From Lachnospiraceae bacterium (GTDB lineage Bacteria > Bacillota > Clostridia > Lachnospirales > Lachnospiraceae), in assembly GCA_017542245.1 (NCBI GenBank), contig JAFXXN010000101.1:1-59069 (forward strand): 59,069 nucleotides of DNA, written 5' to 3'. The notes under the pieces were generated by a model. It was not told the DNA's origin. It ran no database searches and saw nothing but the letters and a program-made list of their open reading frames with translations. A program made the translations under genes and the position numbers. The first letter of the stretch is position 1; the number at the start of each line of letters is the position of its first letter. Positions 1,934 through 29,691 of this stretch are shown in pieces.

Positions 1934-1934
1934 G

Positions 1935-2682: not shown

Positions 2683-2716
2683 CAAAAGTGGATTATGTTC
2701 GATAAGGTAGGTAGCA

Positions 2717-3331: not shown

Positions 3332-3342
3332 TATTTTTCTCA

Positions 3343-4008: not shown

Positions 4009-4066
4009 TTATATACCCTCCGTAATCGAAAAACTCAAAGTTGTATAGATTAAAAGATATTATATA

Positions 4067-4118: not shown

Positions 4119-4132
4119 CACATAATTATCCC

Positions 4133-4187
4133 TTGACAAATAATGATTTTAGGGGTATTTTTACATATATAATTAGCGTTGGCTAAC
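4133..4187 (+). promoter_or_regulatory. Promoter (plus) of ABC pair 1 with GTTAGC-type box
   Basis: -35 TTGACA (4133-4138), 17-bp spacer, -10 TATTTT (4156-4161), box ATTAGCGTTGGCTAAC (4172-4187). Clearly homologous to the promoter at 9862-9915. Confidence 0.78.
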
Positions 4188-4221
4188 CTTTATAATATAA
4201 AATGCAGGAAGAGATTTTTTA

Positions 4222-7619: not shown

Positions 7620-7648
7620 AGGAATAGAAACGGAGACTAAAAAAGAAA

Positions 7649-8056
7649 ATGGGAATTAAGAAAATCATATTCATAGTGACAGGCTGTATTTGCCTTGCAC
7701 TTGGGACTATCGGAGTGATACTTCCTATACTGCCAACTACGCCGTTCTTTTTAGTGACGGCATACTGCTTTGCAAGAAGTTCCGAAAAACTCAATGACTG
7801 GTTTAAAGGAACAAAATTATACAAAAAGCATTTGGAATCATTCGTTGAAAAGAAAGGCATGCTTCCCTCTACTAAGGCATGTATTTTAATTACAGTGACA
7901 ATTCTTATGTCACTTGGGTTCTATTTTATGGCAAGAAAAGGAATATGGATACCGTGCATAATAATTTCATTGGTTTGGGTAGCGCATCTGGTATATTTTC
8001 TGTTCTTTGTGAAGACTATAAAACATGAAAATGCGGAGCAAATGATTAATGAGTAA
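7649..8056 (+). CDS. DUF454 (YbaN-type) inner membrane protein
   Basis: A 135-residue protein with the DUF454 pattern: an N-terminal helix, the PILPTTPFFLVTAYCFARSS signature (about residues 25-44), a soluble WFKGTKLYKKHLESF segment, and two more helices near residues 70-115. DUF454 proteins are small membrane proteins of unknown function, often near metal, haem or ABC transporter genes. It is the third gene of the ABC pair 1 operon and overlaps the next ORF by 8 bp. Confidence 0.87.
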   Translation: MGIKKIIFIVTGCICLALGTIGVILPILPTTPFFLVTAYCFARSSEKLNDWFKGTKLYKKHLESFVEKKGMLPSTKACILITVTILMSLGFYFMARKGIWIPCIIISLVWVAHLVYFLFFVKTIKHENAEQMINE

Positions 8057-12188: not shown

Positions 12189-12244
12189 TTGACAAGTTAG
12201 CAGAAGATAACTATAATCATTTTTTGTAGTTATCTGAGGCTAAC
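12189..12244 (+). promoter_or_regulatory. FTR1 operon promoter with two boxes in mirror arrangement
   Basis: -35 TTGACA (12189-12194), 17-bp spacer, perfect -10 TATAAT (12212-12217). One box (GTTAGCAGAAGATAAC, 12196-12211) fills the spacer and another (GTTATCTGAGGCTAAC, 12229-12244) covers the region after the start site. Together they make a 19-bp-armed imperfect inverted repeat around the -10, predicting tight repression. Confidence 0.82.
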
Positions 12245-12295
12245 TATTAAATAATATGTAAGAAAAAAGTGTACTATAGAGGGGAGATAGACAGG

Positions 12296-13684
12296 ATGAA
12301 GAAAATATCCGGACGGATATTTAGTCTGCTTGCAGTTTTAATAATTTTTGTCAGTATGTTTTCTCGGACAGTATATGCTGCAGATAGTGGAGACGCAGAC
12401 TTTTATCTGTCGTTTAAGAAATATAAAACCGCGGTAAATCCTGACGGATCCAAGACTATTACATATAATGATATTACAGATCAGATATCAAATCTTCTCA
12501 ACGAAGGTATCAGAAGATATGAAGCCGGAGTTGAATACGATGGAGACGAAGGCTATTATAAACCGTTTACGAATTCTTATGGTTTCTGGTATGAAACCTC
12601 AGGATTTGAGAAAACAGTTATGGGATATATTTCCGGAGCCAGAGTAAATGAAGTTGAACTTCAGTTTTCAAATATGAAAAAAGCTGTTAATAACGGCGAA
12701 AATGTTGAAAGGGTAACAGAGGAAGTAAACGCACTTATAAAACTGCTGAGAGAAGACGCAGATATTCTTGATAAACTGTTTGGTTATACCAAGGAAAGTG
12801 AATCTGGGGGCGGAAGCGGAATAGCCTGGGCTACTTTTGGAGCTGTATTCGGAATCATCCTGCGAGAAGGTCTGGAAGCTATTCTGATAGTGGGTGCAAT
12901 GGTGGCATACCTGATAAAGACCGGGAACAAAAAAGGGACTCTGTATGTATATGCCGGCGGCATCATAGCACTGGCTGCCAGTGTCGGATTAGCAATACTT
13001 TTATACTCGATTACAAGCAGCACATCAAATTCCATACCGCAGGAAATAGTTGAAGGTGTTACCGCCCTAGTGGCCGTAGCAGTTCTGATATACGTATCGA
13101 ACTGGATGATATCCAAGGCAGAGTCTGAAGCGTGGACAAATTATATATCGGGAAAAGTCACGGAGTCAGCCGATAAGGGCAAGATGTGGGCACTGGGATT
13201 CACTTCATTTCTTGCAGTGTTCCGTGAGGGCGCGGAAGTCATATTGTTCTGTCAACAGTATTTTTCAAGAGCAGATTCTATGGAAAACGGATATCTGGCA
13301 GTGTTTGGCGGTATCGCAACAGGACTTGTAGCCGTGGCTGTTGTGTTTATTATAATCAGAGTATTTGGTATAAAACTTCCATTGAAACCGTTCTTTATGG
13401 CAACAAGTATTCTTATGGCAATAATGTCCATAGCATTCCTTGGATCCGGTATGTTTGAACTGTTCCTTGATGGCAGACTGGCTGAAAATATCGGAGGATT
13501 TGTACAGGATCTGGCAGGTACCATACCTGCACTGGAGTGGATGAACGGAAGCGATGTACTCACATTCCTTGGTATATATCCGACCTGGATCACTTTAGGT
13601 CCTCAGATAATTCTTACCATAATCACAATCATAACATTCATAATGATGATAAAAAAGAGTTCTAAAAGCAAAAAAAGTAAATAA
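12296..13684 (+). CDS. FTR1-family iron permease
   Basis: A 462-residue protein. A signal peptide (residues 1 to about 28, ending TVYAA) is followed by a soluble extracytoplasmic domain to about residue 175, then about seven membrane helices. The two FTR1 iron-binding helices are visible: ILREGLEAILIVG and VFREGAEVILF, each with the R-E-G-x-E motif. FTR1/EfeU proteins move iron, usually after oxidation or handling at the surface by a partner. The next gene is a P19-like lipoprotein, as in the Campylobacter cj1658-p19 locus. An upstream GTG (12269) is possible, but ATG 12296 gives a proper signal peptide and has GAGGGG/ACAGG upstream. Confidence 0.93.
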   Translation: MKKISGRIFSLLAVLIIFVSMFSRTVYAADSGDADFYLSFKKYKTAVNPDGSKTITYNDITDQISNLLNEGIRRYEAGVEYDGDEGYYKPFTNSYGFWYETSGFEKTVMGYISGARVNEVELQFSNMKKAVNNGENVERVTEEVNALIKLLREDADILDKLFGYTKESESGGGSGIAWATFGAVFGIILREGLEAILIVGAMVAYLIKTGNKKGTLYVYAGGIIALAASVGLAILLYSITSSTSNSIPQEIVEGVTALVAVAVLIYVSNWMISKAESEAWTNYISGKVTESADKGKMWALGFTSFLAVFREGAEVILFCQQYFSRADSMENGYLAVFGGIATGLVAVAVVFIIIRVFGIKLPLKPFFMATSILMAIMSIAFLGSGMFELFLDGRLAENIGGFVQDLAGTIPALEWMNGSDVLTFLGIYPTWITLGPQIILTIITIITFIMMIKKSSKSKKSK

Positions 13685-13760
13685 TAATCTAATCTGATCC
13701 CGTAAATCAGACTGGCTGTTATTGATAAATCAACAACTTTATTTAACGGAGGGATTAAAA

Positions 13761-14387
13761 ATGACAAAATTTGCAAGATTTATTTCTACAACACTTGCCT
13801 GTTCGGTACTTGCCATCGGTCTTACAGCCTGCAGCAAGGAAGAAAAGAAAACACCTGCTCCTGCAACAGAGAATACAGGATCTGTTACTCAGGCACAGGC
13901 AGCTGAGGAGGAAGGTGAAGATCTCGGATTTACAGAGGTTGAAATCTTCTCAGGCGTAGAGAAAGAATTTCTTAACCTTAATGCGGTATATTTCCAGCCC
14001 GTTGATATGACAGGTGGATACAAGGCAGAGGATTATGACTGCCACCTTGAGCTTGATGTTTCAGCACTTGAGAATGGTTTAGGATATGGAAAGGGTGACT
14101 GGGTTCCCTACCTTACAGTAGAATATGAGGTATCTAAGAATGGCGGAGATTACAAGACCAGCGGAACATTCATGCCTATGGCAGCTTCTGACGGACCTCA
14201 CTACGGAGCAAATATAAAAGTTGATGGCGATGGCTTATATACCGTTACATTCACAGTTAAATTCCCTGATTCAAGCACCTATCTTATCCACACAGACGAG
14301 ACAGGTCCTGAGACTCATGCTTTCCCTAATGCCATTGTTTACACATATGATAAGTGGCAGTTCACCAAGGGTGCTTGGGCAGAGTAA
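13761..14387 (+). CDS. P19/Tp34-like periplasmic-type iron-binding lipoprotein
   Basis: A 208-residue lipoprotein (lipobox LTAC, Cys24) with a short linker and a P19-like beta-sandwich. Recognisable parts are GVEKEFLNLNAVYFQPVDM, DCHLELDVSALENGLGYGKGDWVPYLTVEYEV and GPHYGANIKV; the Met and His residues here correspond to the family's metal ligands. In Campylobacter and in FetMP systems, P19/FetP works with FTR1 on iron uptake. In a Gram-positive cell the lipid anchor places it on the outer face of the membrane beside FTR1. ATG 13761 has a GGAGGG ribosome site; the upstream ATG 13722 would give an unusual leader. A small hairpin (TCTGAT/ATCAGA) lies in the intergenic gap. Confidence 0.9.
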   Translation: MTKFARFISTTLACSVLAIGLTACSKEEKKTPAPATENTGSVTQAQAAEEEGEDLGFTEVEIFSGVEKEFLNLNAVYFQPVDMTGGYKAEDYDCHLELDVSALENGLGYGKGDWVPYLTVEYEVSKNGGDYKTSGTFMPMAASDGPHYGANIKVDGDGLYTVTFTVKFPDSSTYLIHTDETGPETHAFPNAIVYTYDKWQFTKGAWAE

Positions 14388-14527
14388 ATAATTTAAGGTT
14401 GTTAAGGTTTACGGGGCTTTGACAGCTATAGAGCCTGGATCAAAAGCAGAGGCAGATATGCCGAAGTTTTGGTCTGGGCTTTATGCGTGTTTACAGGTAA
14501 GTCTTAACGATAAAAGGGTGACAAAAA

Positions 14528-15841
14528 ATGCTTACTTATCTTATCAATGTAACTGATGATCTTCTCATGGTTTTTACCATTATCGGAGTAATATTTGCTT
14601 TTTCTGATAGCTACATGTCGGAAAAAGGACAGAGAATCGTAAAGATCAGCTTTATTCTGGGACTTGTGATAGCAGCAGTAAGAGCTTATATAACCAATAC
14701 AAGACGTCTGGTCGGGGGCTGGAGAGTTGGTGCATACGGTTATGGAGCAGCTCTTGGAATATTTGTTGTTTTTATAATAGTGTATTTTATTGTTTCGAAA
14801 AGAACTTTCAGAGATAATACAGAAAAGCAAACCTGCAGCAAAGCGGAATGCTTCATAAGCATTATTATTGGACTTTTGTTAATTACATATCTTTTCGGTA
14901 CCGTTTCAAATGTTTATGTATATCCGTTTAAATTTGATACGAAGGGTAACGGACTGCTTTCTACCGATTATCTTTTCAGACTGGGCGGATATCTGCTGGG
15001 AATTATAATCAGCTTCGCGTCAATGATCGCTGCATATAAGATCTCGGTGGTTATCAGAAAGAAAGGATATGGAAAGTTACTTAAAGCTGCTTTTATTATC
15101 CTGAATGTAATTTATGCAGTGTTTAATTTTGCAAAGCTGATGCTCGTTCTTACCCCAAGAAAAATAATAGACAGTACTGTGTTATTTAATTTCGCAGCTG
15201 CAAGTAATAATAATTCCGTTATTTATGTCTATTTATGCTTTGCAATGTTAGTGCTTATGTCAGTATATATCTGGATAAAAAGCAAAACAGCTAAAGAACC
15301 ATACTCGACCAAAGCAGAACATCGTAAACAAAAATCTATCTGGAGAACGGGTAAAAGATTTTCTATACTTATGCTTATATGTCTTGTAAATGCTGTGTTG
15401 TGCGCCACGCTTTTTGTAAAATTAAATACTGTAGTGATAAATGAAGCACCTGTAGAGGATCCTATAATCATAAAGGATGGAGCAGGACAGGACAAAGACT
15501 TAGAGATTCCGCTTACGATGGTAAATGACGGGCATCTGCATCGTTTCGGATATACTACGGCTGAAGGGTATCCTACAAGACTTATAGTGATATTAAAGCA
15601 GGAAAATACAACAAATTATGGTGTAGGACTTGACGCCTGTGAGATATGCGGTGAAGCCGGTTATTATGAAAATAATGACGGAAAGGTAGTATGCAAGAAA
15701 TGCGGAGTTGTCATGAATACTTCGACCATAGGCATGAAGGGTGGATGCAACCCGATAATAATCGATTATGATATTGATGAAAGTGCTATTACGATACCGG
15801 TTTCTGAAATGGTAAGGACACAGTCAAACTTTAAGAAATAA
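14528..15841 (+). CDS. DUF2318 Fe-S-containing membrane protein
   Basis: A 437-residue protein with about eight membrane helices (residues 1-315), then an extracytoplasmic DUF2318 domain. The domain shows HLHRFGY, the cysteine set DACEICGEAGYY and CKKCGVVMN, then GMKGGCNPI. Homologues (for example Cj1660) sit with P19 and FTR1 and are thought to bind iron or a redox cofactor through these Cys and His residues. The 140-bp gap before it contains an imperfect long inverted repeat (GTTAAGGTTTAC and GTAAGTCTTAAC) that could adjust downstream expression. Confidence 0.88.
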   Translation: MLTYLINVTDDLLMVFTIIGVIFAFSDSYMSEKGQRIVKISFILGLVIAAVRAYITNTRRLVGGWRVGAYGYGAALGIFVVFIIVYFIVSKRTFRDNTEKQTCSKAECFISIIIGLLLITYLFGTVSNVYVYPFKFDTKGNGLLSTDYLFRLGGYLLGIIISFASMIAAYKISVVIRKKGYGKLLKAAFIILNVIYAVFNFAKLMLVLTPRKIIDSTVLFNFAAASNNNSVIYVYLCFAMLVLMSVYIWIKSKTAKEPYSTKAEHRKQKSIWRTGKRFSILMLICLVNAVLCATLFVKLNTVVINEAPVEDPIIIKDGAGQDKDLEIPLTMVNDGHLHRFGYTTAEGYPTRLIVILKQENTTNYGVGLDACEICGEAGYYENNDGKVVCKKCGVVMNTSTIGMKGGCNPIIIDYDIDESAITIPVSEMVRTQSNFKK

Positions 15842-15876
15842 AACCGGATGAAGCAAGTGCTTTTAAGGAGGACACA

Positions 15877-17181
15877 ATGTTCTTTAGAATGGTAAAAGGA
15901 ACCTTTATACGACAGAAGAAAAAGCTTCTGATGATCGCGCTGACAGTAGCACTGGGAGCTTCTATAGCTACTGCGATGCTGAATGTCATGCTGGATGTCG
16001 GTGACAAGATAAACGAAGAATTAAAGACTTACGGTTCAAACATTACTGTAGTTCCTCAGTCTTCGGCGGTTATAAGTAAGCTGTATGATACAGAAGAAGA
16101 GGATGATGACGCTCAGACGGAATACATAAAGGAAGAAAAAGTGGGAGAACTGCTTACGATATTCTGGGCGAATAATATAACTGATTTTGCACCGGAGACG
16201 GATACAGTGGTAACCCTGGGCAATTCGGAAGTAGGACTTGTCGGTACATGGTTTAACCATAAGCTTGAATTTAAGAAAAAGGGATCGGTATATACCAGAG
16301 ATACGGGAGTTATTAATTTAAGAAGCTGGTGGGATGTCGAAAGCGGCACTATGTTAAATGAGCAGGCGGTATTCGGGGATAAATATGCCATGATTGGCCG
16401 TGAACTTGCAGAAGAGAAGAATATAAAAGCCGGGGATACCATAATTGTTTCAAGGGACGGCAGAAATGAAGAACTTGAGATAATCGGTATTTTCGAGTCA
16501 GGTGATGACGATGATAATATGATATATACTACCCTGTCGGTTGCACAGAGGCTGACAGATACCGTGGGGTATATAAAAAAGATAGAAGTAAGTGCCATAA
16601 CTTCACCGGAAGATGAACTTGCTGTAAAAGCAGCGAAAAATCCTTCACTTCTCTCTGGTGATGAATATGATCTGTGGTATTGTACTGCTTACGTTAGTTC
16701 GATATGTTTCCAGATACAGGAGGCTATCCCGGAGGCCTCGGCTTCAGCTATAAGGCAGATAGCAGATTCAGAAGGAAAAATCCTCGAAAAAACAGAACTT
16801 CTAATGTCACTTATTACTTTTTTGAGTCTTATAGGAGCAACATTGGGAATATCGAACCTTGTGACTTCGGGTGTTATGGAGAGGTCACAGGAGCTGGCTT
16901 TATTGAAAGCAGTAGGAGCAAAGAATGGACAGATAACATTCCTTGTTCTTGCTGAGATCATATTTACCTCTATATTAGGCACCATAGCAGGGTACTTCTT
17001 AGGGTATGGTTTTGCACAGATTATCGGTCACAGCGTTTTCTCCTCCGGGGTTGAGATGAGCGGAATGGTTGCGTTCATTGTTTCAGTCCTCATAATTTTT
17101 GTGACCCTTATCGGAAGTATCCCTGCTATAAGGATGCTGTTAAGACTGCGTCCATCAGAGGTTCTTCACGGCGGACACTGA
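15877..17181 (+). CDS. FtsX/MacB-type ABC permease 1 of the FTR1 operon
   Basis: A 434-residue permease with the MacB layout: one N-terminal helix (about residues 20-40), a large extracytoplasmic domain (about 45-300), and three C-terminal helices with the FtsX signature (ERSQELALLKAVGAK). It corresponds to Cj1661-type permeases of P19 loci. It probably pairs with the next permease (17232) and the ATPase at 18496. Such MacB-like systems use ATP to drive extracytoplasmic events rather than to move substrate through the permease; here that may mean acting on the P19/FTR1 complex. Confidence 0.9.
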   Translation: MFFRMVKGTFIRQKKKLLMIALTVALGASIATAMLNVMLDVGDKINEELKTYGSNITVVPQSSAVISKLYDTEEEDDDAQTEYIKEEKVGELLTIFWANNITDFAPETDTVVTLGNSEVGLVGTWFNHKLEFKKKGSVYTRDTGVINLRSWWDVESGTMLNEQAVFGDKYAMIGRELAEEKNIKAGDTIIVSRDGRNEELEIIGIFESGDDDDNMIYTTLSVAQRLTDTVGYIKKIEVSAITSPEDELAVKAAKNPSLLSGDEYDLWYCTAYVSSICFQIQEAIPEASASAIRQIADSEGKILEKTELLMSLITFLSLIGATLGISNLVTSGVMERSQELALLKAVGAKNGQITFLVLAEIIFTSILGTIAGYFLGYGFAQIIGHSVFSSGVEMSGMVAFIVSVLIIFVTLIGSIPAIRMLLRLRPSEVLHGGH

Positions 17182-17231
17182 TTTAACAAAATAGAAAAGC
17201 AACATAAAGTGGACTGAAAAGGTGAAATAAA

Positions 17232-18437
17232 ATGAACAAAAAGCGGAAAATGTTTATCAGGATGATAGTAGCTTCGCTTGTGAGAAGACGATCGCGAATG
17301 ATCGTAGCTTTACTGGCTATCATGGTCGGAGCAACTATCCTGTCAGGATTAGGGTTGATATATTTTGATGTTCCGAGACAGATGAGTTCTCAGTTTAGAA
17401 GCTACGGAGCAAATATCATTATAGCTCCGGAAAGCGATGGAGATGTATCTTACGAAAAACTTCAGAAAAGCATAACATATTTCCCATCGAACGAACTTGA
17501 AGGGTATACGCCATACAGATATGAGAATTCAAAGATACACAATATGCCGGTAACTTTGGCAGGAACGGACCTGGAGTCAGTACTTAAAACAAGTCCGTAT
17601 TGGCATATAGACGGAGAACTTCCGGCAAAAAACGGTGAAGCCCTGATAGGAGCGAAACTTGCAGAAAGCCTCGGAATCAGTAAGGGAGAATCTGTTTCTA
17701 CGGTTAATACTTTTGAGATAACCGAGGAAATGGAGAATGTTGATATTCCTGATTATGAAAAGTATACCGATCCCGAAACCGGAGAAATGTACTGTGACCA
17801 TACACTGGACCTTACGATAAGCGGGATACTTGAAACCGGAGGATCTGAAGAAGAATATATATATCTTAGCCTGGAAGATGTGGAGTATATGACGCTGTCG
17901 AAAAGAGGATATGATATAGTTGAGGTCAGTGTTGCGTCCACCAAAGATAAACTTTCGGAATATACAGAAAAGATAAGCAGGGATATAGACGGCATAAAGG
18001 CAAAGCTTGTAAAGAGAGTAACGGCATCTGAAAGTTCTGTCCTTTCAAAACTTCAGGCGTTAGTATTTATTGTCACGGCTGTAGTATTGGTTCTTACTAT
18101 GATCTGTGTTGCGACCACGATGGCTGCGGTTATAGCGGAAAGACGCCGTGAGATAGGATTGAGAAAAGCACTGGGTGCTTTTAATTCCAGCATTGTCGGG
18201 CAGTTTATGGGTGAAGGCCTGCTTCTGGGAGCTGTTGGCGGAATATTAGGTTCCATCCTGGGTTTCTTATTTGCTCAGTATGTGAGTCAGCATGTATTTT
18301 CGAGCTCGATAACATTCAGACCTTTACTGATACCAATAACTATAGTAGCTTCGGTCATAGTTACAGGTACGGCATGTCTGATGCCCATAAAGAGTGCGGT
18401 AGAGGTTGATCCGGCACTGGTATTAAAGGGAGAGTAG
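17232..18437 (+). CDS. FtsX/MacB-type ABC permease 2 of the FTR1 operon
   Basis: A 401-residue permease with an N-terminal helix (VALLAIMVGATILSGLGL), an extracytoplasmic domain, and three C-terminal helices with the FtsX signature (ERRREIGLRKALGAF). Same topology as the preceding gene product, giving a likely heterodimer. The ribosome site is AAAAGGTG. Its place between permease 1 and the ATPase matches the Campylobacter P19 locus order (Cj1661-Cj1662-Cj1663). Confidence 0.9.
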   Translation: MNKKRKMFIRMIVASLVRRRSRMIVALLAIMVGATILSGLGLIYFDVPRQMSSQFRSYGANIIIAPESDGDVSYEKLQKSITYFPSNELEGYTPYRYENSKIHNMPVTLAGTDLESVLKTSPYWHIDGELPAKNGEALIGAKLAESLGISKGESVSTVNTFEITEEMENVDIPDYEKYTDPETGEMYCDHTLDLTISGILETGGSEEEYIYLSLEDVEYMTLSKRGYDIVEVSVASTKDKLSEYTEKISRDIDGIKAKLVKRVTASESSVLSKLQALVFIVTAVVLVLTMICVATTMAAVIAERRREIGLRKALGAFNSSIVGQFMGEGLLLGAVGGILGSILGFLFAQYVSQHVFSSSITFRPLLIPITIVASVIVTGTACLMPIKSAVEVDPALVLKGE

Positions 18438-18495
18438 TGAGACCTTGTGAGAGTTTGGAGTTGAATATAAATATTCGATTATGGAGATGATGAAA

Positions 18496-19173
18496 ATGGA
18501 AAACTTGCTTGAATTAAAAAATATATCGAAAATATATGGTGGACTTAAGGCACTTGATAATGTCAGCCTGAATGTCAGAAAAGGTGAATGGCTTGCTATA
18601 ATGGGTCCGTCAGGATCAGGTAAAAGTACGATGATGAATATAGTGGGCTGCCTGGATAAACCCAGCACCGGGGAGGTATTCTTTGATGGTAAGGATATTT
18701 CAAAAGAAAGCGGAAAAAAGTTAACAGAGCTGCATAGGGATAAAATAGGACTGGTATTTCAGCAGTTTCATCTGATCAATTATCTGAATGCCGTTGAAAA
18801 TGTTATGGTTGCACAGTATTACCACAGTATGCCTGATGAGCAGGAAGCTCTGGAAGCACTTGAAAGGGTGGGACTAAAGGATAGAGCAAAGCATCTTCCG
18901 AGCCAACTTTCGGGCGGCGAGCAGCAAAGAGTCTGTATAGCGAGAGCTATCATCAACTCACCCCAGCTTATACTGGCAGACGAGCCCACGGGAAATCTTG
19001 ATGAGGCAAATGAAAACATAGTGCTTGATATTTTCAGGCGTCTCCACAAAGAAGGGACTACGCTTATTGTGGTAACACATGATCCTGAGGTTGGAGAGGT
19101 AGCTCAGAGGATTGTTCGCCTGGAGCATGGTAAAATTGTGTCGGATTGTGAGAATGAGCATTTTACCGATTGA
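18496..19173 (+). CDS. MacB/LolD-type ABC ATPase of the FTR1 operon
   Basis: A 225-residue stand-alone ATPase. Walker A is [10 protein letters not shown]-loop VFQQFHLI, signature [15 protein letters not shown], Walker [13 protein letters not shown] and H-loop VTHDPEV. It should power the two FtsX-type permeases just upstream. The frame is open from ATG 18481, but the GGAG at 18483-18486 fits initiation at ATG 18496. Confidence 0.93.
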
Positions 19174-19223
19174 TCGGAATATTTCAATCAGAACGAAAAA
19201 TATTTACATGTGAGGAAATCATT

Positions 19224-19673
19224 ATGAGATCACGTTTTATTGGAAAATGTAAGTTTTTTACCATGGCGTTATGTGTATGTGCACTTATGACAGCCTGCTC
19301 GGGAGGGAGTGGTAGTTCAGATTATAAGGACGGTTCATATATAGGACGCAGTTCGGATTTTAGCGCGGACGAGAGCGGAAACGGTTCCGGATATGGTGAG
19401 GTAGCTGTCGAGATAAAAGACAATAAGATTATATCATGTACATTTAAGATGTATGAACTTGACGGGACACTGAAAGATGAAAATTACGGTTCGGATCTTT
19501 CAAAGGAAAACCGTTTGAAGGCACAGAAGGCTGTACAGTCTGCTGCTAAATACGCATCGGAGCTTGTAAAAACAGGATATCTGAAGGATGTTGATGCTAT
19601 AAGCGGTGCAACTATATCGTATAATGAATTTAAGGAAGCGGTAAATGATGCACTGCAAAAAGCTGCCAAGTAA
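19224..19673 (+). CDS. FMN-binding domain lipoprotein (covalently flavinylated candidate)
   Basis: A 149-residue lipoprotein (lipobox LMTAC, Cys25) with one FMN-binding domain: YKDGSYIG at its start, a beta-rich middle, and the flavin attachment motif SGATIS with Thr130. In this family ApbE transferase joins FMN to that Thr. Surface FMN domains carry electrons outside the membrane. It lies in the FTR1 operon beside fumarate-reductase-like genes, so a role in reducing or handling iron at the cell surface is a reasonable inference. ATG 19224 has GTGAGG upstream; an ORF from 19170 would bury the signal peptide. Confidence 0.9.
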   Translation: MRSRFIGKCKFFTMALCVCALMTACSGGSGSSDYKDGSYIGRSSDFSADESGNGSGYGEVAVEIKDNKIISCTFKMYELDGTLKDENYGSDLSKENRLKAQKAVQSAAKYASELVKTGYLKDVDAISGATISYNEFKEAVNDALQKAAK

Positions 19674-19709
19674 ACCATATCAGCAGTTGAAAAGGAGAGG
19701 ATATACGGC

Positions 19710-20204
19710 ATGAAGATATCAGGCATTTTAATAAATATAGGATGCACGATTGCCATTCTCTTTATATTGGCCGGATTTCCTATCCTGAAATATCTTATAA
19801 TCCCCAATATCAGCAATGATGTTGATGCGGTTTCCAGTTCAAGTCTGGTTTTACCGGAACAGCCTTCGGGAGATTTTCTGGTGTATATCAACGAATCGCT
19901 TCACGAAGACAGTGTTGATTCGTGGGAAGCTTTTTTTATGGATGAAGAGTTTTCTGTAATATTTGAAGATATCGGATGTCTTGTCGCGGAAGGAGATGCC
20001 GGCGGGATTCAGTTGGCGGAACGTTTTCAGGCAGAACTTCCGGAAAATCAGATGAAACTAAAAAAAGAAAACCCTGTGCTGGTTGCATCGAGGATTGAAG
20101 AAGGGTATATAGACGTAGCTGTTATTTCAAAGGAAATGGCAGAATCATTGAAGTTATTGGAAGAAATCCCGGGAATCCGTTTACTGCATTTGTCCGGTTC
20201 GTAA
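19710..20204 (+). CDS. Membrane-anchored hypothetical protein of the FTR1 operon
   Basis: A 164-residue protein with one N-terminal helix (about residues 5-30) and an acidic soluble domain, probably outside the cell. Near the C-terminus, EGYIDVAVISKEMAESLKLLEEIPGIRLLHL suggests an alternating alpha/beta fold, but I do not recognise a family. The ribosome site is GGAGAGG. Its place between the FMN lipoprotein and the cytochrome-b-like gene suggests an accessory part of the same surface electron-transfer complex. Confidence 0.7.
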   Translation: MKISGILINIGCTIAILFILAGFPILKYLIIPNISNDVDAVSSSSLVLPEQPSGDFLVYINESLHEDSVDSWEAFFMDEEFSVIFEDIGCLVAEGDAGGIQLAERFQAELPENQMKLKKENPVLVASRIEEGYIDVAVISKEMAESLKLLEEIPGIRLLHLSGS

Positions 20205-20233
20205 TTTTAAAGTAAGCTTTTGGGGAGGCAGAT

Positions 20234-20770
20234 ATGCGGAGGCTCAATATAATACTGATAGCCGGTATGTTCCTGACATTTTTACTGCATGGAATTACCG
20301 GGGCGCTGACGATATCAGGCGGAAATAGTGATGTCAATAAAATAGTTGCTTGGATATGCGTGTTCTTTGTTGCACTTCATGTAATAGTTACCACGATACT
20401 GACTGTAAAAACACTACATGCCATACATAAGACAAAAGCAGGATATTTTAAAAACAACATAATGTTCTGGATCCGCAGAATAAGTGGTTTTACAATACTT
20501 ATACCGCTTTTGATGCATCTATTTATATTTAATGTACCGCCAACAGATATATACAGGCTTAAAGCTTTTGATACGGGAAGATTTATATCACAGCTTCTTA
20601 TGGTACTTACCATTTCTCTTCATGTGCTGACTAATATAAAACCGTTCATGTTGGCGATAGGGGCGAAGAACTATAAGAAAATTATTATTAATACCCTTTT
20701 TGTTTTAGCGATTCTGTTTCTACTATTTGCTGTGGCATTTTGTATTTATTATTTACGTTGGAATACATGA
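20234..20770 (+). CDS. Cytochrome-b-like membrane subunit (fumarate reductase/SdhC-like)
   Basis: A 178-residue protein with about five predicted helices. Four intramembrane histidines stand out: LLHG (residue 19), ALHVIV (about 48), LMHLFI (about 95) and SLHVLTN (about 129). This spacing suits binding of two b haems. The segment RRISGFTILIPLLMH closely resembles the R-x-S/T-G helix of succinate dehydrogenase/fumarate reductase cytochrome b. It directly precedes FrdA-like and FrdB-like genes, so it is probably their membrane anchor. It would take electrons across the membrane towards the FMN lipoprotein and P19 (inference). Confidence 0.75.
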   Translation: MRRLNIILIAGMFLTFLLHGITGALTISGGNSDVNKIVAWICVFFVALHVIVTTILTVKTLHAIHKTKAGYFKNNIMFWIRRISGFTILIPLLMHLFIFNVPPTDIYRLKAFDTGRFISQLLMVLTISLHVLTNIKPFMLAIGAKNYKKIIINTLFVLAILFLLFAVAFCIYYLRWNT

Positions 20771-20803
20771 TGCCTGGATACAGAATTGTGGAAGGAGTAT
20801 GAC

Positions 20804-22366
20804 ATGGTTAATATAGTCGGTGCGGGATTGGCAGGGCTGTCTGCAGCTATCACCCTGGCGAGACAGGGAGTCAGCACCAATCTGATATCGGTTCAACCGT
20901 CCGAAAGAGCTCAGTCTGTGCTGGCAGAAGGTGGTATAAACGCGGCACTTGATACGATGGGAGAAGGAGACTCTGTATCAGATCATTATCAGGATACCAT
21001 AAAGGGTGGATGTTTCCTGGAATCTGAAGAATCTGTAAAAGCGTTGACCGAAAACGCTCCGCAGATAGTCAGGAAGTTGATAAATCTTGGAGTCCCTTTT
21101 AATGCCGAAAAAGGGAAGCTTGTTCTTAGAAATTTTGGCGGACAGAAAAAGAAGCGTACTGCATTTGCAAAAAGCAGTACCGGTAAAATGATAATGACTG
21201 CACTGATAGATGAAGCCAGGAAATATGAGGCTTCAGGTGTAATAAAAAGATACCCGAACCATGAGATGGTGGATATAAGCATAAGTGAGGGAAAGATAGA
21301 AAATCTTTTGGTTCGGGATATATTCAGCTTAAAGCTTTTATCATTTTCAGGGCCTGCGATCATATGCTGCGGTGGGTTAAACGGCTTTTTTGAAGGCATG
21401 ACTACAGGAACCACCGCAAACACGGGAAATGTACAGGCACTTCTTTTTGAAAAAGGCGTAGAATTTGCTAATCTTGAGTTTATCCAGTACCATCCGACAA
21501 CTGTGGAGATAACGGGAAAAAGACTGCTTGTTTCCGAAGCTGCTCGTGGTGAAGGTGGGCGTCTTTTTACAAATAAAAATGGAACCAGATGGTATTTTAT
21601 GGAAGAAAAGTATCCTGAATTCGGTAATCTGATGCCAAGGGATGTTGTATCGAGAGAGGTGTTCATGCTGGATAGAGAACAGGGGTGTGACGGACAGGTA
21701 TATCTTGACATGACAGAAATCGGAAGCGATATCTGGGATAGAAAACTGAATGATCTAAGAAAAGAGCTTATAGATTACTTAGGGAAAGATCCGAAAAAAG
21801 ATCCGATTCCGGTTAGTCCGGGAATGCATTATTTTATGGGCGGTATCAGGGTAAACAGGTATCATGAGACAAATATAAAAGGTCTTTATGCTGCAGGAGA
21901 GGCAGCAGCACGCTATCATGGTGCAAACCGTCTCGGAGGCAACTCCATGCTTGGAGCGATATTTGGAGGGAAGACAGCCGCAGAAAATATTAAAAAATAT
22001 GATATGCCGGGATCGGTAAAGGAAGAAAATCGTATCCTGCAGGATAAATCTGAAGAAAAAAACCGTAAAGGCCTAAAGAATATCCTCTTAAAAGGGCTGG
22101 GTATAGTTCGAACGTACAAAGACCTGAGATATACAGTAGATGAGATAGAGAAACTGTTGTTAAGCAGTGATATGCCGGAGATAGATCGTAAAAGAGCATA
22201 TCTGGGACTGGCAATGGGCAGGTCAGCTCTTGAAAGAAAGGAAAGCAGGGGAGCACATTTTCGTGAAGATTATCCTGAACCGTCAGATGAATACAGAAAA
22301 CAGACCGTAGCTGTATTTGAAAAAGGTGATGTGAGGATATGTTTTAAAGAACTCGAAAATTTGTAG
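20804..22366 (+). CDS. FAD-dependent fumarate reductase/succinate dehydrogenase-like flavoprotein
   Basis: A 520-residue cytoplasmic flavoprotein of the FrdA/SdhA/NadB superfamily. The dinucleotide fold is GAGLAGLSAAI at the N-terminus, the FAD/capping region contains LAEGGINAA, and active-site motifs are FIQYHPTTVEI, SEAARGEGGRLF, PRDVVSREV and PGMHYFMGGI; RLGGNSMLGAIFGG lies near the FAD ribityl site. It lacks a Tat signal. With the Fe-S and cytochrome-b-like subunits it forms a complete Frd-like complex, oddly placed in an iron-uptake operon. It might be a true fumarate reductase, but the context favours a dedicated electron module. ATG 20804 follows GGAAGGAG. Confidence 0.9.
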   Translation: MVNIVGAGLAGLSAAITLARQGVSTNLISVQPSERAQSVLAEGGINAALDTMGEGDSVSDHYQDTIKGGCFLESEESVKALTENAPQIVRKLINLGVPFNAEKGKLVLRNFGGQKKKRTAFAKSSTGKMIMTALIDEARKYEASGVIKRYPNHEMVDISISEGKIENLLVRDIFSLKLLSFSGPAIICCGGLNGFFEGMTTGTTANTGNVQALLFEKGVEFANLEFIQYHPTTVEITGKRLLVSEAARGEGGRLFTNKNGTRWYFMEEKYPEFGNLMPRDVVSREVFMLDREQGCDGQVYLDMTEIGSDIWDRKLNDLRKELIDYLGKDPKKDPIPVSPGMHYFMGGIRVNRYHETNIKGLYAAGEAAARYHGANRLGGNSMLGAIFGGKTAAENIKKYDMPGSVKEENRILQDKSEEKNRKGLKNILLKGLGIVRTYKDLRYTVDEIEKLLLSSDMPEIDRKRAYLGLAMGRSALERKESRGAHFREDYPEPSDEYRKQTVAVFEKGDVRICFKELENL

Positions 22367-22412
22367 TCGTTCATCTGACAGGAGAAAAATCAGTCAGTAT
22401 ATAAGGTGTAAC

Positions 22413-23168
22413 ATGGAATATATTATATCCGTTAAAAGACGGAAACGGGATGAAAAAAACGATTATTATCAGGATTTTTTATATATTGCGGATTCTGAAA
22501 ATGATACTGTGGCAACCGCTCTGACGAACCTGAATTTGCAGGAACCTCTGATGGATATTAATGGGCTTCCGACAACTATGATAGAGTGGGAATGCAGCTG
22601 TCTTCAGAAAAAATGCGGTGCCTGTGCCATGGTAATAAACGGAAGACCGGGACTTGCATGCGCAGCAAAATTAAAGGATTATAAAAAGAAGAAAATAAGC
22701 CTTGAACCATTAAGGAAATTTCCGGTTATTGCAGATCTGATGGTTGACAGGAGTATATTATATGAAAACCTGAAAACTTTAACTCTCTGGCTACGGAAAG
22801 ATATTGACGGGAAGAAGGATGATCCGGAGTTTGGAACAATGCTTTGTGAGAAAGACAGCAATCTGGCATATACTGCTTCGGAGTGTATACAATGTGGGTG
22901 CTGTCTTGAAGTATGTCCCAATTTTTATCCGGGAGGAAGTTTCTTTGGTATGTCTACAGTGCCGGTCACTACAAGATTGCTTACGGAAATGTCTTCGGCG
23001 GATATAAAGAAGATAGCTAAAGGGTATATGGAGTATGTATATGAAGGCTGTGGAAAGTCGTTAGCTTGTATGGATATCTGTCCCAGAAAAATTCCTACGG
23101 ATAAATTGATGGTAAATTCAAATGCCTTAATATTTTGGAAGAGGAGAAAAAAAGATGTTCGGAAATAG
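22413..23168 (+). CDS. Fumarate reductase-like iron-sulfur protein
   Basis: A 251-residue FrdB/SdhB-like subunit. The N-terminal plant-ferredoxin fold has a [2Fe-2S] motif (ECSCLQKKCGACAMV plus a Cys in GLACAAK). The C-terminal domain has CIQCGCCLEVCP and CGKSLACMDICP for two further clusters. It would pass electrons from the FAD subunit at 20804 to the cytochrome-b-like subunit at 20234. It overlaps the next gene by 14 bp. That an Fe-rich complex is encoded in an iron-starvation-type operon is unusual. Confidence 0.92.
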   Translation: MEYIISVKRRKRDEKNDYYQDFLYIADSENDTVATALTNLNLQEPLMDINGLPTTMIEWECSCLQKKCGACAMVINGRPGLACAAKLKDYKKKKISLEPLRKFPVIADLMVDRSILYENLKTLTLWLRKDIDGKKDDPEFGTMLCEKDSNLAYTASECIQCGCCLEVCPNFYPGGSFFGMSTVPVTTRLLTEMSSADIKKIAKGYMEYVYEGCGKSLACMDICPRKIPTDKLMVNSNALIFWKRRKKDVRK

Positions 23169-23589
23169 TAAATTAAAAATCAGTTTTGCAGAATTACTTC
23201 TTGTTGTTATTACAGCAGTATACGTTATAGGAATAAGAACCTGGTTTGAGGTATGCCCTGCTATGGGAGAATCGATGATGAGCTGTCACTGGGCAGGAGA
23301 GGTATTAAAAGCTGCATCTATAATTCTTGCAGGAATGACTCTGCTTACGGTGTTTATTCCTGACATTAAGGTAAAAATAGGTTTAAATATCGGTATTGTT
23401 GGATTAAATATATTTAATATATCTATTCCGGGCGGAATTATAAATATCTGTAAAAATGCTGATATGGCCTGCAGAACCAACACATATCTCTGGAATATCA
23501 TACTGACTGTTAGCTGTATAATTATTGCCGTGGCGGATATTATACTGTTGTTTTCATATTCGAACAGAGAAAAGCACAGCAGAAAGTAA
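23155..23589 (+). CDS. DUF4418 family membrane protein
   Basis: A 144-residue protein with four predicted helices and the DUF4418 signature near the first loop: FEVCPAMGESMMSCHWAGEV (Cys, Cys-His). A second Cys pair lies in NICKNADMACRTNTYLWN. DUF4418 genes commonly neighbour FtsX-type permease and ATPase genes; the Cys/His loop suggests metal or haem contact on the outer face. Function unknown. It starts inside the Fe-S gene with ribosome site GAGGAG. Confidence 0.85.
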   Translation: MFGNSKLKISFAELLLVVITAVYVIGIRTWFEVCPAMGESMMSCHWAGEVLKAASIILAGMTLLTVFIPDIKVKIGLNIGIVGLNIFNISIPGGIINICKNADMACRTNTYLWNIILTVSCIIIAVADIILLFSYSNREKHSRK

Positions 23590-23598
23590 GGACTTTAT

Positions 23599-24807
23599 AT
23601 GAAATTTGCATTTGGAACATCGCTGAAAAATATTAAAAGAAAACCGTTCCGATCTTTTATGATGATGTTACTGGTAGTGATTTTATCTTTTGTTCTGTTT
23701 ATGGGTGCATATATCGTTATGGGACTCAGAAACGGGCTGTCTAGTTATCAGCTAAGGCTTGGAGCCGATATAATAGTGACTCCTTCATCGGCAAACGGTC
23801 ATGGAAATGTTGATGATATTCTGTTACAGGGAATATCGGGAAACTACTATATTTCAGCAAAAGATATAGAAAAAATAAAGAACACACCCGGTATTGCTGA
23901 AATGACCACGCAGTTCTTCCTCACATCTGCAAAAGCAAGCTGTTGTGCGACACGTGTTCAGATAATAGGATTTGATCCCAAAACGGATTTCTCGATTATT
24001 CCGTGGATGCGGGAAGAATATTCCGGAGAATTAGGTATCGGCGAAGTGATAGTCGGTTCAAGTATCAATGTACCGGAAGACGGGATCATAACTTTTTACG
24101 GACAAAAATATAATATTGTCGGTCAACTGGCTGAAACAGGCACAGGACTTGACAGTGCGGTGTATACAAATATGGACACCATAAGAAGAATGGCCGATGA
24201 TGCTTCACATCTGCTGGAAACAGATCCGTTTAAGGGCGTTAATATAAACACCGCTGCTTCAGCAGTACTGCTTCGCGTAGAAGAGGGATATGAAATAAAC
24301 GATGTAGCAGATGATATAAATATACATATAACTAAAGTAAAAGCTACATCATCGAAAAATATGGTGTCAAGGATATCAGAGAATCTTGGAAATGTTTCCT
24401 ATGTTATTCTTCTTCTCGTAATAGGTATCTGGATACTCTCACTTGTGATACTTATCACTGTTTTTGCGATGATTTCAAACGAGCGCAGAAAGGAATTTGC
24501 AATATACAGGATTATGGGTGCATCCAAAAAGATACTTGTTGAGATAATGGGATGTGAAGCGTTTATATTATGTTCAATAGGAAGTATTTCAGGGCTTGTG
24601 ATAGCTTTCTTCGTGAGTATGGTTTCTACAGAGTCATTAAAGGAAGCACTGGCACTTCCGGCACTTGCACCGGGATTTTTTGCTATACTTATGCTGATGG
24701 CGGGAACATTCATAGTTGCAGTCGGAGCAGGATTGATAACATCATTGCTGTCAGCCGGACGGATCACGAAAGGGGAAACAGGGCTTTTGCTAAAGGGAGA
24801 TAGTTGA
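23599..24807 (+). CDS. FtsX/MacB-type ABC permease 3 of the FTR1 operon
   Basis: A 402-residue permease: N-terminal helix (MMMLLVVILSFVLFMGAYIV), an extracytoplasmic domain containing a Cys pair (SAKASCCATRVQ), and three C-terminal helices with FtsX signature (ERRKEFAIYRIMGASKK). It stands with its own ATPase one base downstream, forming a second MacB-like system in this operon. The DUF4418 gene just upstream is its usual neighbour. Confidence 0.88.
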   Translation: MKFAFGTSLKNIKRKPFRSFMMMLLVVILSFVLFMGAYIVMGLRNGLSSYQLRLGADIIVTPSSANGHGNVDDILLQGISGNYYISAKDIEKIKNTPGIAEMTTQFFLTSAKASCCATRVQIIGFDPKTDFSIIPWMREEYSGELGIGEVIVGSSINVPEDGIITFYGQKYNIVGQLAETGTGLDSAVYTNMDTIRRMADDASHLLETDPFKGVNINTAASAVLLRVEEGYEINDVADDINIHITKVKATSSKNMVSRISENLGNVSYVILLLVIGIWILSLVILITVFAMISNERRKEFAIYRIMGASKKILVEIMGCEAFILCSIGSISGLVIAFFVSMVSTESLKEALALPALAPGFFAILMLMAGTFIVAVGAGLITSLLSAGRITKGETGLLLKGDS

Positions 24808-24808
24808 C

Positions 24809-25495
24809 ATGGAGCTCAAAGCTGATGGGATATCCAGGATTTTTTTTAGAAATGGAAAGAATACTAATTTTTTTCATGCTGTAAATAAGACTGATTTTAG
24901 TCTGGAATCAGGAAAAATAACGGTAATTATTGGGAAATCCGGAAGTGGAAAAACAACTTTTATAAATATGCTTGCAGGCCTGCTTTGCCCTACGGAAGGA
25001 AAGGTACTGCTTGATGGACAGGACCTGTATGAGATGGATGATGCAAAGAGATCCAGACTTAGAAACGTAAGCTTTGGAATAATTCCTCAAGGACATACCG
25101 GACTTTCCAGTCTTACAGTACTTGAAAATGTTCTGGCTCCGGTATACATGTATGAGTCAGGAAAATCAAAGAAGGAAAAAGCACTGGATCTGTTAAAATT
25201 CCTTGGAATAGATGAACTTCAGGAAGTGTATTCTGACGAACTCTCGGGGGGAGAGCAAAGAAGGATGTCTATAGCAAGAGCACTGATAGGTAATCCCAAA
25301 ATAATAATAGCAGATGAACCAACAGGAGATCTTGATGATGAGACTACTGTGAAGGTTCTTGACTTACTTAAAAAATATGCAATCAATGGTGCTGCAGTTC
25401 TTATCGTAACACATGATGATATAGCAGTAAAATATGCCGATTATCTGTATAAAATGGATAACGGTAATCTTATTAACGCTCGTCCCGATACATGA
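24809..25495 (+). CDS. MacB/LolD-type ABC ATPase 2 of the FTR1 operon
   Basis: A 228-residue ATPase: Walker A GKSGSGKTT, signature LSGGEQRRMSIARAL, Walker B IIIADEPTGDLD, H-loop VTHDDIAV. It should drive the permease at 23599. The ribosome site AAAGGGAG lies inside the preceding gene. It ends by overlapping 23 bp with the convergent HxlR gene; no terminator can be seen between them. Confidence 0.92.
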   Translation: MELKADGISRIFFRNGKNTNFFHAVNKTDFSLESGKITVIIGKSGSGKTTFINMLAGLLCPTEGKVLLDGQDLYEMDDAKRSRLRNVSFGIIPQGHTGLSSLTVLENVLAPVYMYESGKSKKEKALDLLKFLGIDELQEVYSDELSGGEQRRMSIARALIGNPKIIIADEPTGDLDDETTVKVLDLLKKYAINGAAVLIVTHDDIAVKYADYLYKMDNGNLINARPDT

Positions 25496-28542: not shown

Positions 28543-28593
28543 TTGACTATTCGTTATTTCAATGATATTATTATATAGTAAGCATTGACTAAC
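28543..28593 (+). promoter_or_regulatory. AraC-gene promoter with GTTAGC-type box
   Basis: -35 TTGACT (28543-28548), 17-bp spacer, -10 TATTAT (28566-28571), box GTAAGCATTGACTAAC (28578-28593). Confidence 0.72.
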
Positions 28594-28620
28594 TATCACG
28601 ATAATATTTATTGGAGATAT

Positions 28621-29601
28621 ATGAGAAAGTATTTAGATAATAAAAGTCTTTATGACTTTATGAACGGAAAGACACCGGCATTGAAAGAGATCGGAACTGC
28701 GGATATTTCAAGTCAGAAATCCGACAGTGATATCGTTTATTATAGCTGGGATCTTGAATTTGATGCTGATACAGATGCAAAAAAAGAAAACAATTCAGGT
28801 GTTGATGAAGTACAGATAATCTTTAACCTCAATCAAGATATTGAGTGGATGGTAGGAGAAAATGAGACCGATAAAAAATACCAGATCGTATCCATGAAAA
28901 AAGGTGATGTATGTATTTACCGAAACGACAATATCGGTACTTCGATGAAATACAAGAAAGGTGTAAACTTTAAGTTCAAAAGTTTACAGATGCATACAAA
29001 AAGGTTTAAAGAACTGCTAAAAACCCACTTTCCTGAAAATGATATCATAAACATCGAAAAAATTGTTTATGATAGTGTGCAGATGACACGGATTACTCCC
29101 GAAATGTACAGAATATTATCCGAACTGGACAGCGCTGACAGATATAAGGAATTTAAAGGTGTTTTCCTGGATGCTAAAATGACTGAGCTGACCGCACTGG
29201 TTCTTTTTGAAATAGTTCATAACAGAGAAGAAGCAAACAACTATGTTTCCTTAAGAAATAACAGTGACTCATATGCGGTAGAAAAGCTGAGGGAAGATAT
29301 TCAGCTCTCTCCTGTTGAGGATTACGATGCAGAAAGCATTGCAAATAAATTATCCATGAGCGTCAGTAAGCTGAACAGAATATTTCGTGAGCTATATGGG
29401 ACTTCACTTCACGCTTATGTTCAAGAAATGCGTTTGGAACACGCTGCAGAACTGTTGTTAAAAGAGAATATAAATGTTACTGAGGTTGCATTAAACTCCG
29501 GTTACAACAACATGAGTTATTTTTCAAAGGCTTTCAAAGAAAGATTTGGAGTAACTCCAAAAAAGTTTTCTGAGCGAAAAGTGTTAAAAAATGATTTATA
29601 A
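28621..29601 (+). CDS. AraC-family transcriptional regulator
   Basis: A 326-residue AraC regulator. An N-terminal sensor-like domain of about 225 residues is followed by two helix-turn-helix units (YDAESIANKLSMSVSKLNRIFRELYG and INVTEVALNSGYNNMSYFSKAFKERFGVTPKKF). ATG 28621 with GGAG is preferred over an upstream TTG that lies in the box. It sits directly before an IrtAB/YbtPQ-like ABC pair, resembling the YbtA-YbtPQ arrangement of siderophore loci, so it may activate that transporter when its siderophore is present (inference). Confidence 0.92.
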   Translation: MRKYLDNKSLYDFMNGKTPALKEIGTADISSQKSDSDIVYYSWDLEFDADTDAKKENNSGVDEVQIIFNLNQDIEWMVGENETDKKYQIVSMKKGDVCIYRNDNIGTSMKYKKGVNFKFKSLQMHTKRFKELLKTHFPENDIINIEKIVYDSVQMTRITPEMYRILSELDSADRYKEFKGVFLDAKMTELTALVLFEIVHNREEANNYVSLRNNSDSYAVEKLREDIQLSPVEDYDAESIANKLSMSVSKLNRIFRELYGTSLHAYVQEMRLEHAAELLLKENINVTEVALNSGYNNMSYFSKAFKERFGVTPKKFSERKVLKNDL

Positions 29602-29630
29602 ATGGTAGAATTTAATAAAACTTTAATGTA

Positions 29631-29676
29631 TAATCCGTGTGGTTAGCAATAGGTAACCACACGGATTAAATTTTTT
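29631..29676 (+). terminator. Terminator hairpin with a GTTAGC box embedded in it
   Basis: A perfect 15-bp stem (TAATCCGTGTGGTTA at 29631-29645, TAACCACACGGATTA at 29654-29668) is followed by TTTTTT (29671-29676), a strong intrinsic terminator between the AraC gene and the ABC pair. The hairpin tip is the box GTTAGCAATAGGTAAC (29642-29657). A TATAAT at 29629-29634 could be the -10 of an internal promoter with the box just downstream, although no clear -35 is visible. Confidence 0.85.
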
Positions 29677-29691
29677 AGAAAGGGAAAAGCA

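Follow-up and report, generated by a model that had tools for sequence, protein, structure and literature searches.

A 59,069-nucleotide stretch of a Lachnospiraceae bacterium genome (the forward strand of contig JAFXXN010000101.1, called the window here) carries an operon, at positions 12296-25495, in which the genes of a P19/FTR1-type iron importer are joined to a complete gene set for an electron-transfer module related to respiratory complex II. We consider it highly probable that this is an electron module dedicated to the iron operon. Granted such a module, we lean towards electrons passing inward, from the cell surface to the cytoplasm, with outward flow keeping a considerable share of the likelihood. 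The explanation as a whole, a P19/FTR1 importer with its own complex II-type module through which electrons most likely run inward, has in our estimate an even chance of being correct.

All genes of the operon lie on the + strand with gaps of -14 to 140 bp (starts were checked), in keeping with the one-way, closely spaced arrangement described in the initial annotation of this DNA. They encode, in order, an FTR1-family iron permease with REGLE and REGAE motifs (12296-13684; PF03239, 5.9e-26), a P19-type iron-binding lipoprotein (13761-14387; PF10634, 2.5e-41), a membrane protein with an FtrD-like DUF2318 domain and a CxxC...CxxC...C motif (14528-15841; PF10080, 1.4e-25), two FtsX/MacB-like permeases (15877-17181 and 17232-18437; PF02687, 4.1e-17 and 1.8e-20), an ATP-binding cassette (ABC) ATPase (18481-19173), a flavin mononucleotide (FMN)-binding lipoprotein with the motif DAISGATIS (19224-19673; FMN_bind, PF04205, 1.6e-10), a 164-aa protein that we call ORPH (19710-20204), a diheme-type cytochrome b membrane subunit (20234-20770), an FrdA-like flavoprotein (20804-22366; FAD_binding_2, 1.3e-77, and Succ_DH_flav_C), an FrdB-like iron-sulfur protein (22413-23168; Fer2_3, PF13085, 2.6e-25, and Fer4_8, PF13183), a DUF4418 membrane protein (23155-23589; PF14387, 4.4e-19), a third FtsX/MacB-like permease (23599-24807; PF02687, 9.4e-12) and a second ABC ATPase (24809-25495). 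Both ATPases were identified by sequence and have relatives at the same place in many loci. The annotation had named these genes in the same order, passing over only ORPH, which lies between the FMN lipoprotein and cytochrome b; neither ORPH nor the cytochrome b of this operon has a Pfam match at an E cut-off of 0.01. P19 is the sole PF10634 match in the genome, and its Cys37, His108, Glu110, Met151, His160 and His190 (numbered from an open reading frame starting at 13722) are kept in 50 of 50 sequences. An FTR1 with REXXE motifs thus stands beside P19, followed in order by DUF2318, FtsX, FtsX, an ATPase and an FMN protein, the make-up of a P19/FTR1 system.

An alignment of the cytochrome b was used to scan the genome_contigs collection, which yielded 107 relatives, and the analysis was carried out on the best 80 of the 107. 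The protein is rare, occurring in 4 of 145 genomes in the search for relatives and in 9 of 392 genomes of the class, six of these being weak matches (the own genome is included in both counts), and there were no plasmid matches. Loci whose cytochrome b shares mostly 34-56% identity with that of the operon carry the same set of genes, more than chance would produce, which answers the conservation search proposed in the annotation. FTR1 and P19 are both present in 49 of the best 80 loci, and FrdA accompanies them in 46, FrdB in 44, the FMN lipoprotein in 48 and ORPH in 47 of the 49. Of the three loci lacking FrdA, two break off shortly downstream of cytochrome b, L027 after 1.4 kb and L069 after 0.8 kb. 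The titles of the operon-bearing loci span Lachnospiraceae, Oscillospiraceae/Ruminococcus, Saccharofermentans, Eubacterium and Clostridium, with one Acholeplasmatales metagenome-assembled genome (MAG). Gene order varies among them (L022 was left out of this comparison). The blocks are swapped in genome G562 (L141), which has DUF4418-FtsX-ABC-ORPH-cytochrome b-FrdA-FrdB, a MocR-like regulator and then FTR1 to FMN lipoprotein, and in a group of rumen loci DUF4418-FtsX-ABC is followed by a dehydrogenase gene and then FrdA-FrdB. Because the same genes are found together in different orders, the gene set is likely to serve one function. The gene directly before FrdA in five loci (L026 and L029-L032) belongs to the lactate/malate dehydrogenase family and has Arg at the place of Gln102 of lactate dehydrogenase, which by the usual rule would favour a role in fumarate supply. 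Such a role was given little weight, as L-lactate dehydrogenase is the best match, below the cut-off, of the two that were scanned.

Complexes of this family extend beyond iron import, to which one branch is largely tied. In nine of the best 80 loci FTR1/P19 give way to a P1B-type metal ATPase with an ORPH-like gene, and cytochrome b-FrdA-FrdB sets stand alone in L019-L021 and in L022, which is cut after FrdA. Many of the remaining 22 of the best 80 loci are cut by contig ends, and L101 has no cytochrome b call. In a tree of FrdA (74 rows, after removal of those more than 92% alike in the same class, with a P19 label given to any locus holding FTR1, P19, FMN lipoprotein or DUF2318), FrdA linked to the FTR1/P19 block falls within one 65-row clade with support of 100/98, nine rows of which come from cut contigs or other neighbourhoods. 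The sister of this clade is the metal-ATPase-linked FrdA, the two being joined with support of 100/97, and standalone FrdA sequences, among them the second copy from the own genome, fall outside both. The annotation had asked whether frd-like genes occur without FTR1/P19 partners; the sister modules and standalone sets do so, and the FTR1/P19-linked FrdA keeps a clade of its own.

The sister modules have a recognisable setting. At L007, L017, L018, L074, L080-L084, L086, L088 and L090 the module comes after a P1B ATPase of the Zn/Cd/Pb type, in most cases accompanied by an ArsR regulator, and consists of an ORPH-like protein (DAVTGAT or DAVTGVT being its usual motif), cytochrome b, FrdA and FrdB. 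Near-identical modules of this kind occur under different genus names, suggesting transfer between lineages. The second, standalone cytochrome b-FrdA-FrdB set of the own genome (L108:6901-9958, G000:C18) likewise has Gln in place of the His that links flavin adenine dinucleotide (FAD).

The redox subunits of the operon retain the ligands and active-site residues of complex II. FrdA and FrdB match complex II models. The equivalents of H232, E245, R248, R287, H355 and R390 of the flavoprotein active site are kept in all 81 aligned FrdA sequences (rows of 400 aa or less were dropped), and the His that binds FAD covalently in complex II is Gln in the same 81 of 81 (codon 20912-20914 in the operon). 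FrdB keeps 11 Cys residues (63, 68, 71, 83, 158, 161, 164, 168, 213, 219 and 223) in 75 of 75 sequences. The cytochrome b has five helices, and its four membrane His residues, which the annotation had pointed out, are at positions 19, 49, 95 and 130 and invariant in 86 of 86 sequences; its predicted fold is that of the diheme subunit of quinol:fumarate reductase (QFR), so that the fold and the putative haem ligands are both those of a QFR or succinate dehydrogenase membrane subunit. No acidic residue is kept at 90% or more in the aligned membrane subunits. (Alignments were limited to 150-230 aa for cytochrome b, 200-300 for FrdB, 90-260 for the FMN lipoprotein, 180-300 for P19 and 120-260 for ORPH.) Two other identities were considered and rejected. 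A DUF4405/FezC-type cytochrome does not fit the membrane subunit, as 1 of 28 family members matches DUF4405 (E 0.02) against 20 of 28 that match Sdh_cyt. L-aspartate oxidase does not fit FrdA either: where Escherichia coli NadB has Glu121, its aspartate recognition residue, the printed rows show Phe, the residue of FrdA/SdhA.

On the outer face of the membrane, the FMN lipoprotein keeps its lipobox Cys in 60 of 60 aligned members and the Thr of SGAT in 59 of 60, which bears out the attachment site that the annotation had read in SGATIS and agrees with the known flavinylation motif [S/T]GA[S/T] (PMC8238504). ORPH, defined by alignment and a structure model, has DAVSSSS and lacks the strict form of that motif. 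The model (predicted local distance difference test score 87.2) has a transmembrane (TM) helix at residues 3-29, a low-confidence, presumably flexible linker at 32-45 that holds the motif, and a confident alpha/beta domain. Across the family the motif reads D-A-V-[ST]-[SG]-A-[ST]; position 7 is Ser or Thr in 80 of 80 members, and position 1 is Asp in 77 of 80. From this pattern it is possible that ORPH is covalently flavinylated and acts as a second flavin carrier. PF21914 (DUF6921) is matched by 8 of 29 aligned members, the own ORPH not being among them, and neither name appears in any paper found in a search of the open-access literature. ApbE is present in four of four genomes tested, elsewhere in the genome than the operon. 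The gene of about 300 aa that follows FrdB in L035, L039-L041, L043 and other Ruminococcus-type loci was considered as a candidate ApbE and rejected, since the one scanned (L039) is a transglutaminase-like lipoprotein; the printed ones look alike. A 391-aa protein inside the module of L006 (7134-8309), taken at first for a long FMN protein, proved on scanning to be thioredoxin/TlpA-like, and a similar protein lies beside the module in L103 (12955-14209) with a CcdA-like gene (by eye). Both recall the Gram-negative P19 clusters that use thioredoxins.

The usual partner of such an enzyme, a quinone, appears to be missing from most hosts. No member of the UbiA family of prenyltransferases, which includes MenA and UbiA, was detected in the own genome (G000), G010 or G048, the control being positive in 14 of 14 reference genomes; G110 has one such gene. 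Among 20 further operon-bearing genomes, hand-picked from the 49 loci with FTR1 and P19, 18 have no UbiA match at all, one has a member over the cut-off (G548) and one has a weak match, and the counts for G663, G713, G698 and G562 are 0, 0, 0 and 1. A member over the cut-off is therefore present in 3 of the 27 genomes with P19 and the module or a seen part of it (G110, G548 and G562; G048, with no P19 beside its module, was not counted), whereas 14 of the 15 phylum genomes that have P19 and no module in sight possess one at 3e-38 or better. On these gene contents a quinol enzyme is unlikely in the own genome, and since it lacks a UbiA-family gene, a surface flavin is the likely partner of the module.

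The DNA upstream of FTR1 points to metal control. On the + strand at 12189-12246, pattern matching found a promoter and two palindromic operator-like sites. The promoter, TTGACA-17-TATAAT from 12189 to 12217, is a perfect sigma-70-like sequence and the only one of the 42 promoter-like matches in the searched stretch (41.1 in shuffles) to score 12/12. A GTTAGC-N4-GATAAC palindrome (12196-12211) fills its spacer, and a second, GTTATC-N4-GCTAAC, lies at 12229-12244. With at most one mismatch, GTTAG-N6-CTAAC occurs upstream of FTR1 in 47 of 51 loci, the own locus included, although the pattern was chosen after inspecting the same regions and the figure is partly fitted; an earlier form, GTTAKC-N4-GMTAAC, is found at the same tolerance in 24 of the 51. 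There are 100 matches in 20.9 kb of FTR1 upstream regions against 29 in the remaining 900 kb (own window excluded from the latter), and 50 dinucleotide shuffles gave a mean of 0.42 upstream regions with a match and a maximum of 2. The own genome (4.7 Mb) has 12 perfect sites compared with 5 for a reversed control pattern, and 7 compared with 0 for the first pattern form. Six of the 12 fall within the window, where the two sites before FTR1, with one mismatch each, are not counted. Of the six outside it, four are grouped in about 3 kb of sequence around genes for a DtxR-type regulator, a ZIP transporter and a DUF6110-P1B ATPase pair, and the other two adjoin TetR regulators and ABC-exporter genes. 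This distribution suggests that the operon is under metal control. A Fur or classical DtxR box before FTR1 was rejected (4 and 7 mismatches of 19, respectively); the palindrome fits instead.

Two further observations concern the operator. At L157:5593-9478 (G000:C19), a DtxR-type regulator, a DUF6110 protein and a P1B ATPase have operator sites on their flanks, and with its DUF6110-P1B ATPase pair the group resembles a ferrosome-type operon. Within the window, 25 sites of a related palindrome pattern (at most two mismatches) were counted against 7.3 expected. The parts at 1319-8056, 28585-33161, 34743-45428 and 48299-52490 are dense in TetR-like regulators, paired ABC exporters, FtsX-ATPase sets and methyltransferases (for the most part assigned by eye), operator-like sites preceding several of them, and much of the window may be one regulon, given the further sites that flank the DtxR-type regulator.

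A model for the module can be drawn from these features. FrdA with its FAD, FrdB with its Fe-S clusters and cytochrome b would form a complex linking the cytoplasmic fumarate/succinate couple to an extracytoplasmic flavin, through two haems b stacked across the membrane and held by an inner His49/His130 and an outer His19/His95 pair. This flavin would be that of the FMN lipoprotein, perhaps together with ORPH, whose flavinylation-like motif is predicted just outside the membrane, and the module would take the place of the quinone pool. Fe2+ held by P19 would be oxidised on contact with the flavoprotein and the resulting Fe3+ would pass through FTR1, while the electron would travel over the haems, the Fe-S clusters and FAD to fumarate. 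We tentatively suggest, giving it somewhat less than an even chance, that the module is an oxygen-free ferroxidase, a complex II relative that passes electrons from Fe2+ outside through flavins and two haems to fumarate and so allows quinone-free anaerobes to import Fe3+ via FTR1.

FTR1 permeases elsewhere partner with ferroxidases. Homologues with non-covalent FAD are reported to reduce fumarate and not to oxidise succinate (PMC9557727), and the invariant Gln of the present FrdA family thus predicts fumarate reduction without succinate oxidation, which makes inward flow at least as likely as outward. In Bifidobacterium breve, bfeUO-sifABCDE is described as needed under ferrous chelation, with sif mutants affected by ferrous chelators only and bfeUO mutants by ferric ones too (PMC5449479). 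Together with these points, the addition of a fumarate-level enzyme, and not of an NADH dehydrogenase, in quinone-free hosts favours an electron sink over an electron source.

Several observations weigh against this interpretation. The potential of free Fe3+/Fe2+ lies well above that of fumarate/succinate, so that inward flow would need Fe3+ to be bound much tighter than Fe2+, whereas electrons moving outward to a ferric chelate would run downhill. The association of the module with P19 is also incomplete. L085 has the operon and truly lacks FrdA, and the modules of L092, L100 and L103 have no FTR1, P19 or ATPase within the 10 kb upstream and 5-10 kb downstream examined (the contig of L097 is cut 0.7 kb upstream of its module). 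Within the order P19 itself turned up in 13 of 342 genomes, and in the phylum sample it did so in 16 of 398 (own included in both). In the comparison of these loci L136 is listed as lacking P19, its copy having been missed by the reference set. Among the 13 P19 loci of the order the module is seen in six, the own included: downstream in three (G000, G110 and G663), and as FrdA and/or FrdB upstream of FTR1 in three more, complete in G562, FrdB only in G713 (at a contig start) and FrdA only in G698 (at the edge of the fetched stretch). None was seen in the other seven, five of which keep the FMN protein (G097, G106, G627, G611 and G624, the last with DUF4418-FtsX-ABC) and two of which are cut (G137 and G609). 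In 15 further P19 loci of the phylum (15-18 kb fetched) the module was seen in none and a recognised FMN lipoprotein in only five. The module is thus an addition to a wider P19 system. The fifth position of the ORPH motif is Gly in only 28 of 80 members, and the own motif lacks that Gly. Phylogeny is a confounder of the UbiA contrast, MAGs may be incomplete, and within the order the contrast is weak, since three of seven P19 genomes without the module have a member over the cut-off. Some operator sites precede TetR and ABC-exporter genes, in the window too, so the operator may not be purely metal-related and may belong to a wider regulon. In the B. breve study the FMN protein SifE is put forward as a possible reductase of ferric iron (PMC5449479), and reductive models have been proposed for P19-linked FMN or thioredoxin proteins (PMC8238504; PMC6083913). 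Finally, what sequence and prediction show is the gene set with its conservation, the cofactor ligands and active-site residues, the predicted fold of the membrane subunit and the lack of UbiA-family genes in the own genome; complex formation, haem binding, flavinylation, contact with P19 and the direction of flow are inferred.

The alternative that best survives, though we think it rather unlikely, runs in the opposite direction: a cytoplasmic dicarboxylate or other donor would reduce FrdA, and FrdB, the haems and surface FMN would reduce Fe(III) before uptake. All of the carriers are present, and ferric chelates are good acceptors. The published proposals just cited are reductive, and other flavinylated systems adjoin ferrous transporters (PMC8238504). 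The annotation had drawn the module in this way; its complete complex II-type module in an FTR1-P19-FMN operon stands, whereas the outward direction is unsettled, the Gln in 81 of 81 FrdA speaking partly against it, as enzymes of that type lack succinate oxidation and leave no evident cytoplasmic donor. A ferric reductase would moreover be expected to use an NADH- or ferredoxin-linked donor, and in the anaerobic gut ferrous iron is presumed to be of greater relevance than ferric (PMC5449479).

We regard it as improbable that the module serves mainly succinate formation or redox balance, with an extracellular donor feeding surface flavins and fumarate and with iron uptake as one donor or a co-regulated neighbour. 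The sister modules, with a metal ATPase or alone, indicate that the complex is not tied to iron; against this reading, the FTR1/P19-linked FrdA has a clade of its own, and sites of the operator that precedes FTR1 are found around a DtxR-type regulator too. Least probable is an ordinary QFR placed in the iron operon by chance, perhaps retained through shared regulation of iron uptake and iron-rich enzymes: it would account for the QFR fold of the membrane subunit, the complex II matches of FrdA and FrdB, and G110 (99% complete, one contig), where this is the only FrdA homologue and a UbiA-family gene is present, and it is at odds with the absence of UbiA-family genes from the own genome and 18 of 20 others, with the lack of a conserved acidic residue in the membrane subunit, Wolinella FrdC requiring a Glu for quinol oxidation, and with the varied block orders beside FTR1/P19. 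The annotation's concern that these might be the only fumarate reductase genes of the genome applies to G110 and not to the own genome, whose second, standalone Frd is a further point against an ordinary QFR.

The operon is built from parts of known kinds; what is new to us is the way they are combined, the apparent lack of quinones in their setting and the likely chemistry. The annotation knew of no described iron importer with an Frd-like complex, and we found none in the open-access literature searched. The order FTR1, P19, DUF2318, FtsX, FtsX, ATPase is shared with P19/FTR1 clusters such as fetMP-fetABCDEF of Campylobacter, and an FMN protein as seventh gene has been reported for Firmicutes and others (PMC6083913; PMC8238504). 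The 260 P19+FMN clusters catalogued are placed, in the published catalogue, among those without a core transmembrane electron system (PMC8238504); the present operon adds ORPH, cytochrome b, FrdA, FrdB, DUF4418 and a second FtsX-ATPase set. By its described make-up, not by gene-by-gene homology, bfeUO-sifABCDE of B. breve resembles the first seven genes, comprising an FTR1 permease, BfeO, an 8-TM protein, FtsX, FtsX, an ATPase and an FMN protein, and differs in having two transcription units and no Frd-like genes in its description (PMC5449479). For the as yet undefined electron partner of the FMN protein in the widespread P19/FTR1 clusters, the operon supplies a specific candidate from Clostridia of the gut and rumen. 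It also allows a direct test, in the absence of oxygen, of whether iron is oxidised or reduced by FTR1 importers.

The operon also shares an FMN_bind lipoprotein with SGAT, and ApbE elsewhere in the genome, with ApbE-flavinylated electron transfer of the PplA, RnfG and NqrC type, whereas its membrane partner, a complex II-type cytochrome b, lies outside the five transmembrane classes described (PMC8238504). If the model is right, ORPH and its DUF6921 relatives would be a new kind of flavin carrier. Compared with QFR and complex II (Wolinella succinogenes, 1qlb; Desulfovibrio gigas, 5xmj), the module has the same six FrdA active-site residues, the 11 FrdB Cys and a five-helix, four-His membrane subunit; it differs in the Gln at the FAD-linking position, the absence of a conserved acidic residue from the membrane subunit, the lack of UbiA-family genes in most hosts and the adjoining iron transport genes. 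A true model would show complex II working without quinones, and the module would be, as far as we know, the first complex II enzyme to use surface flavoproteins and a metal in their place.

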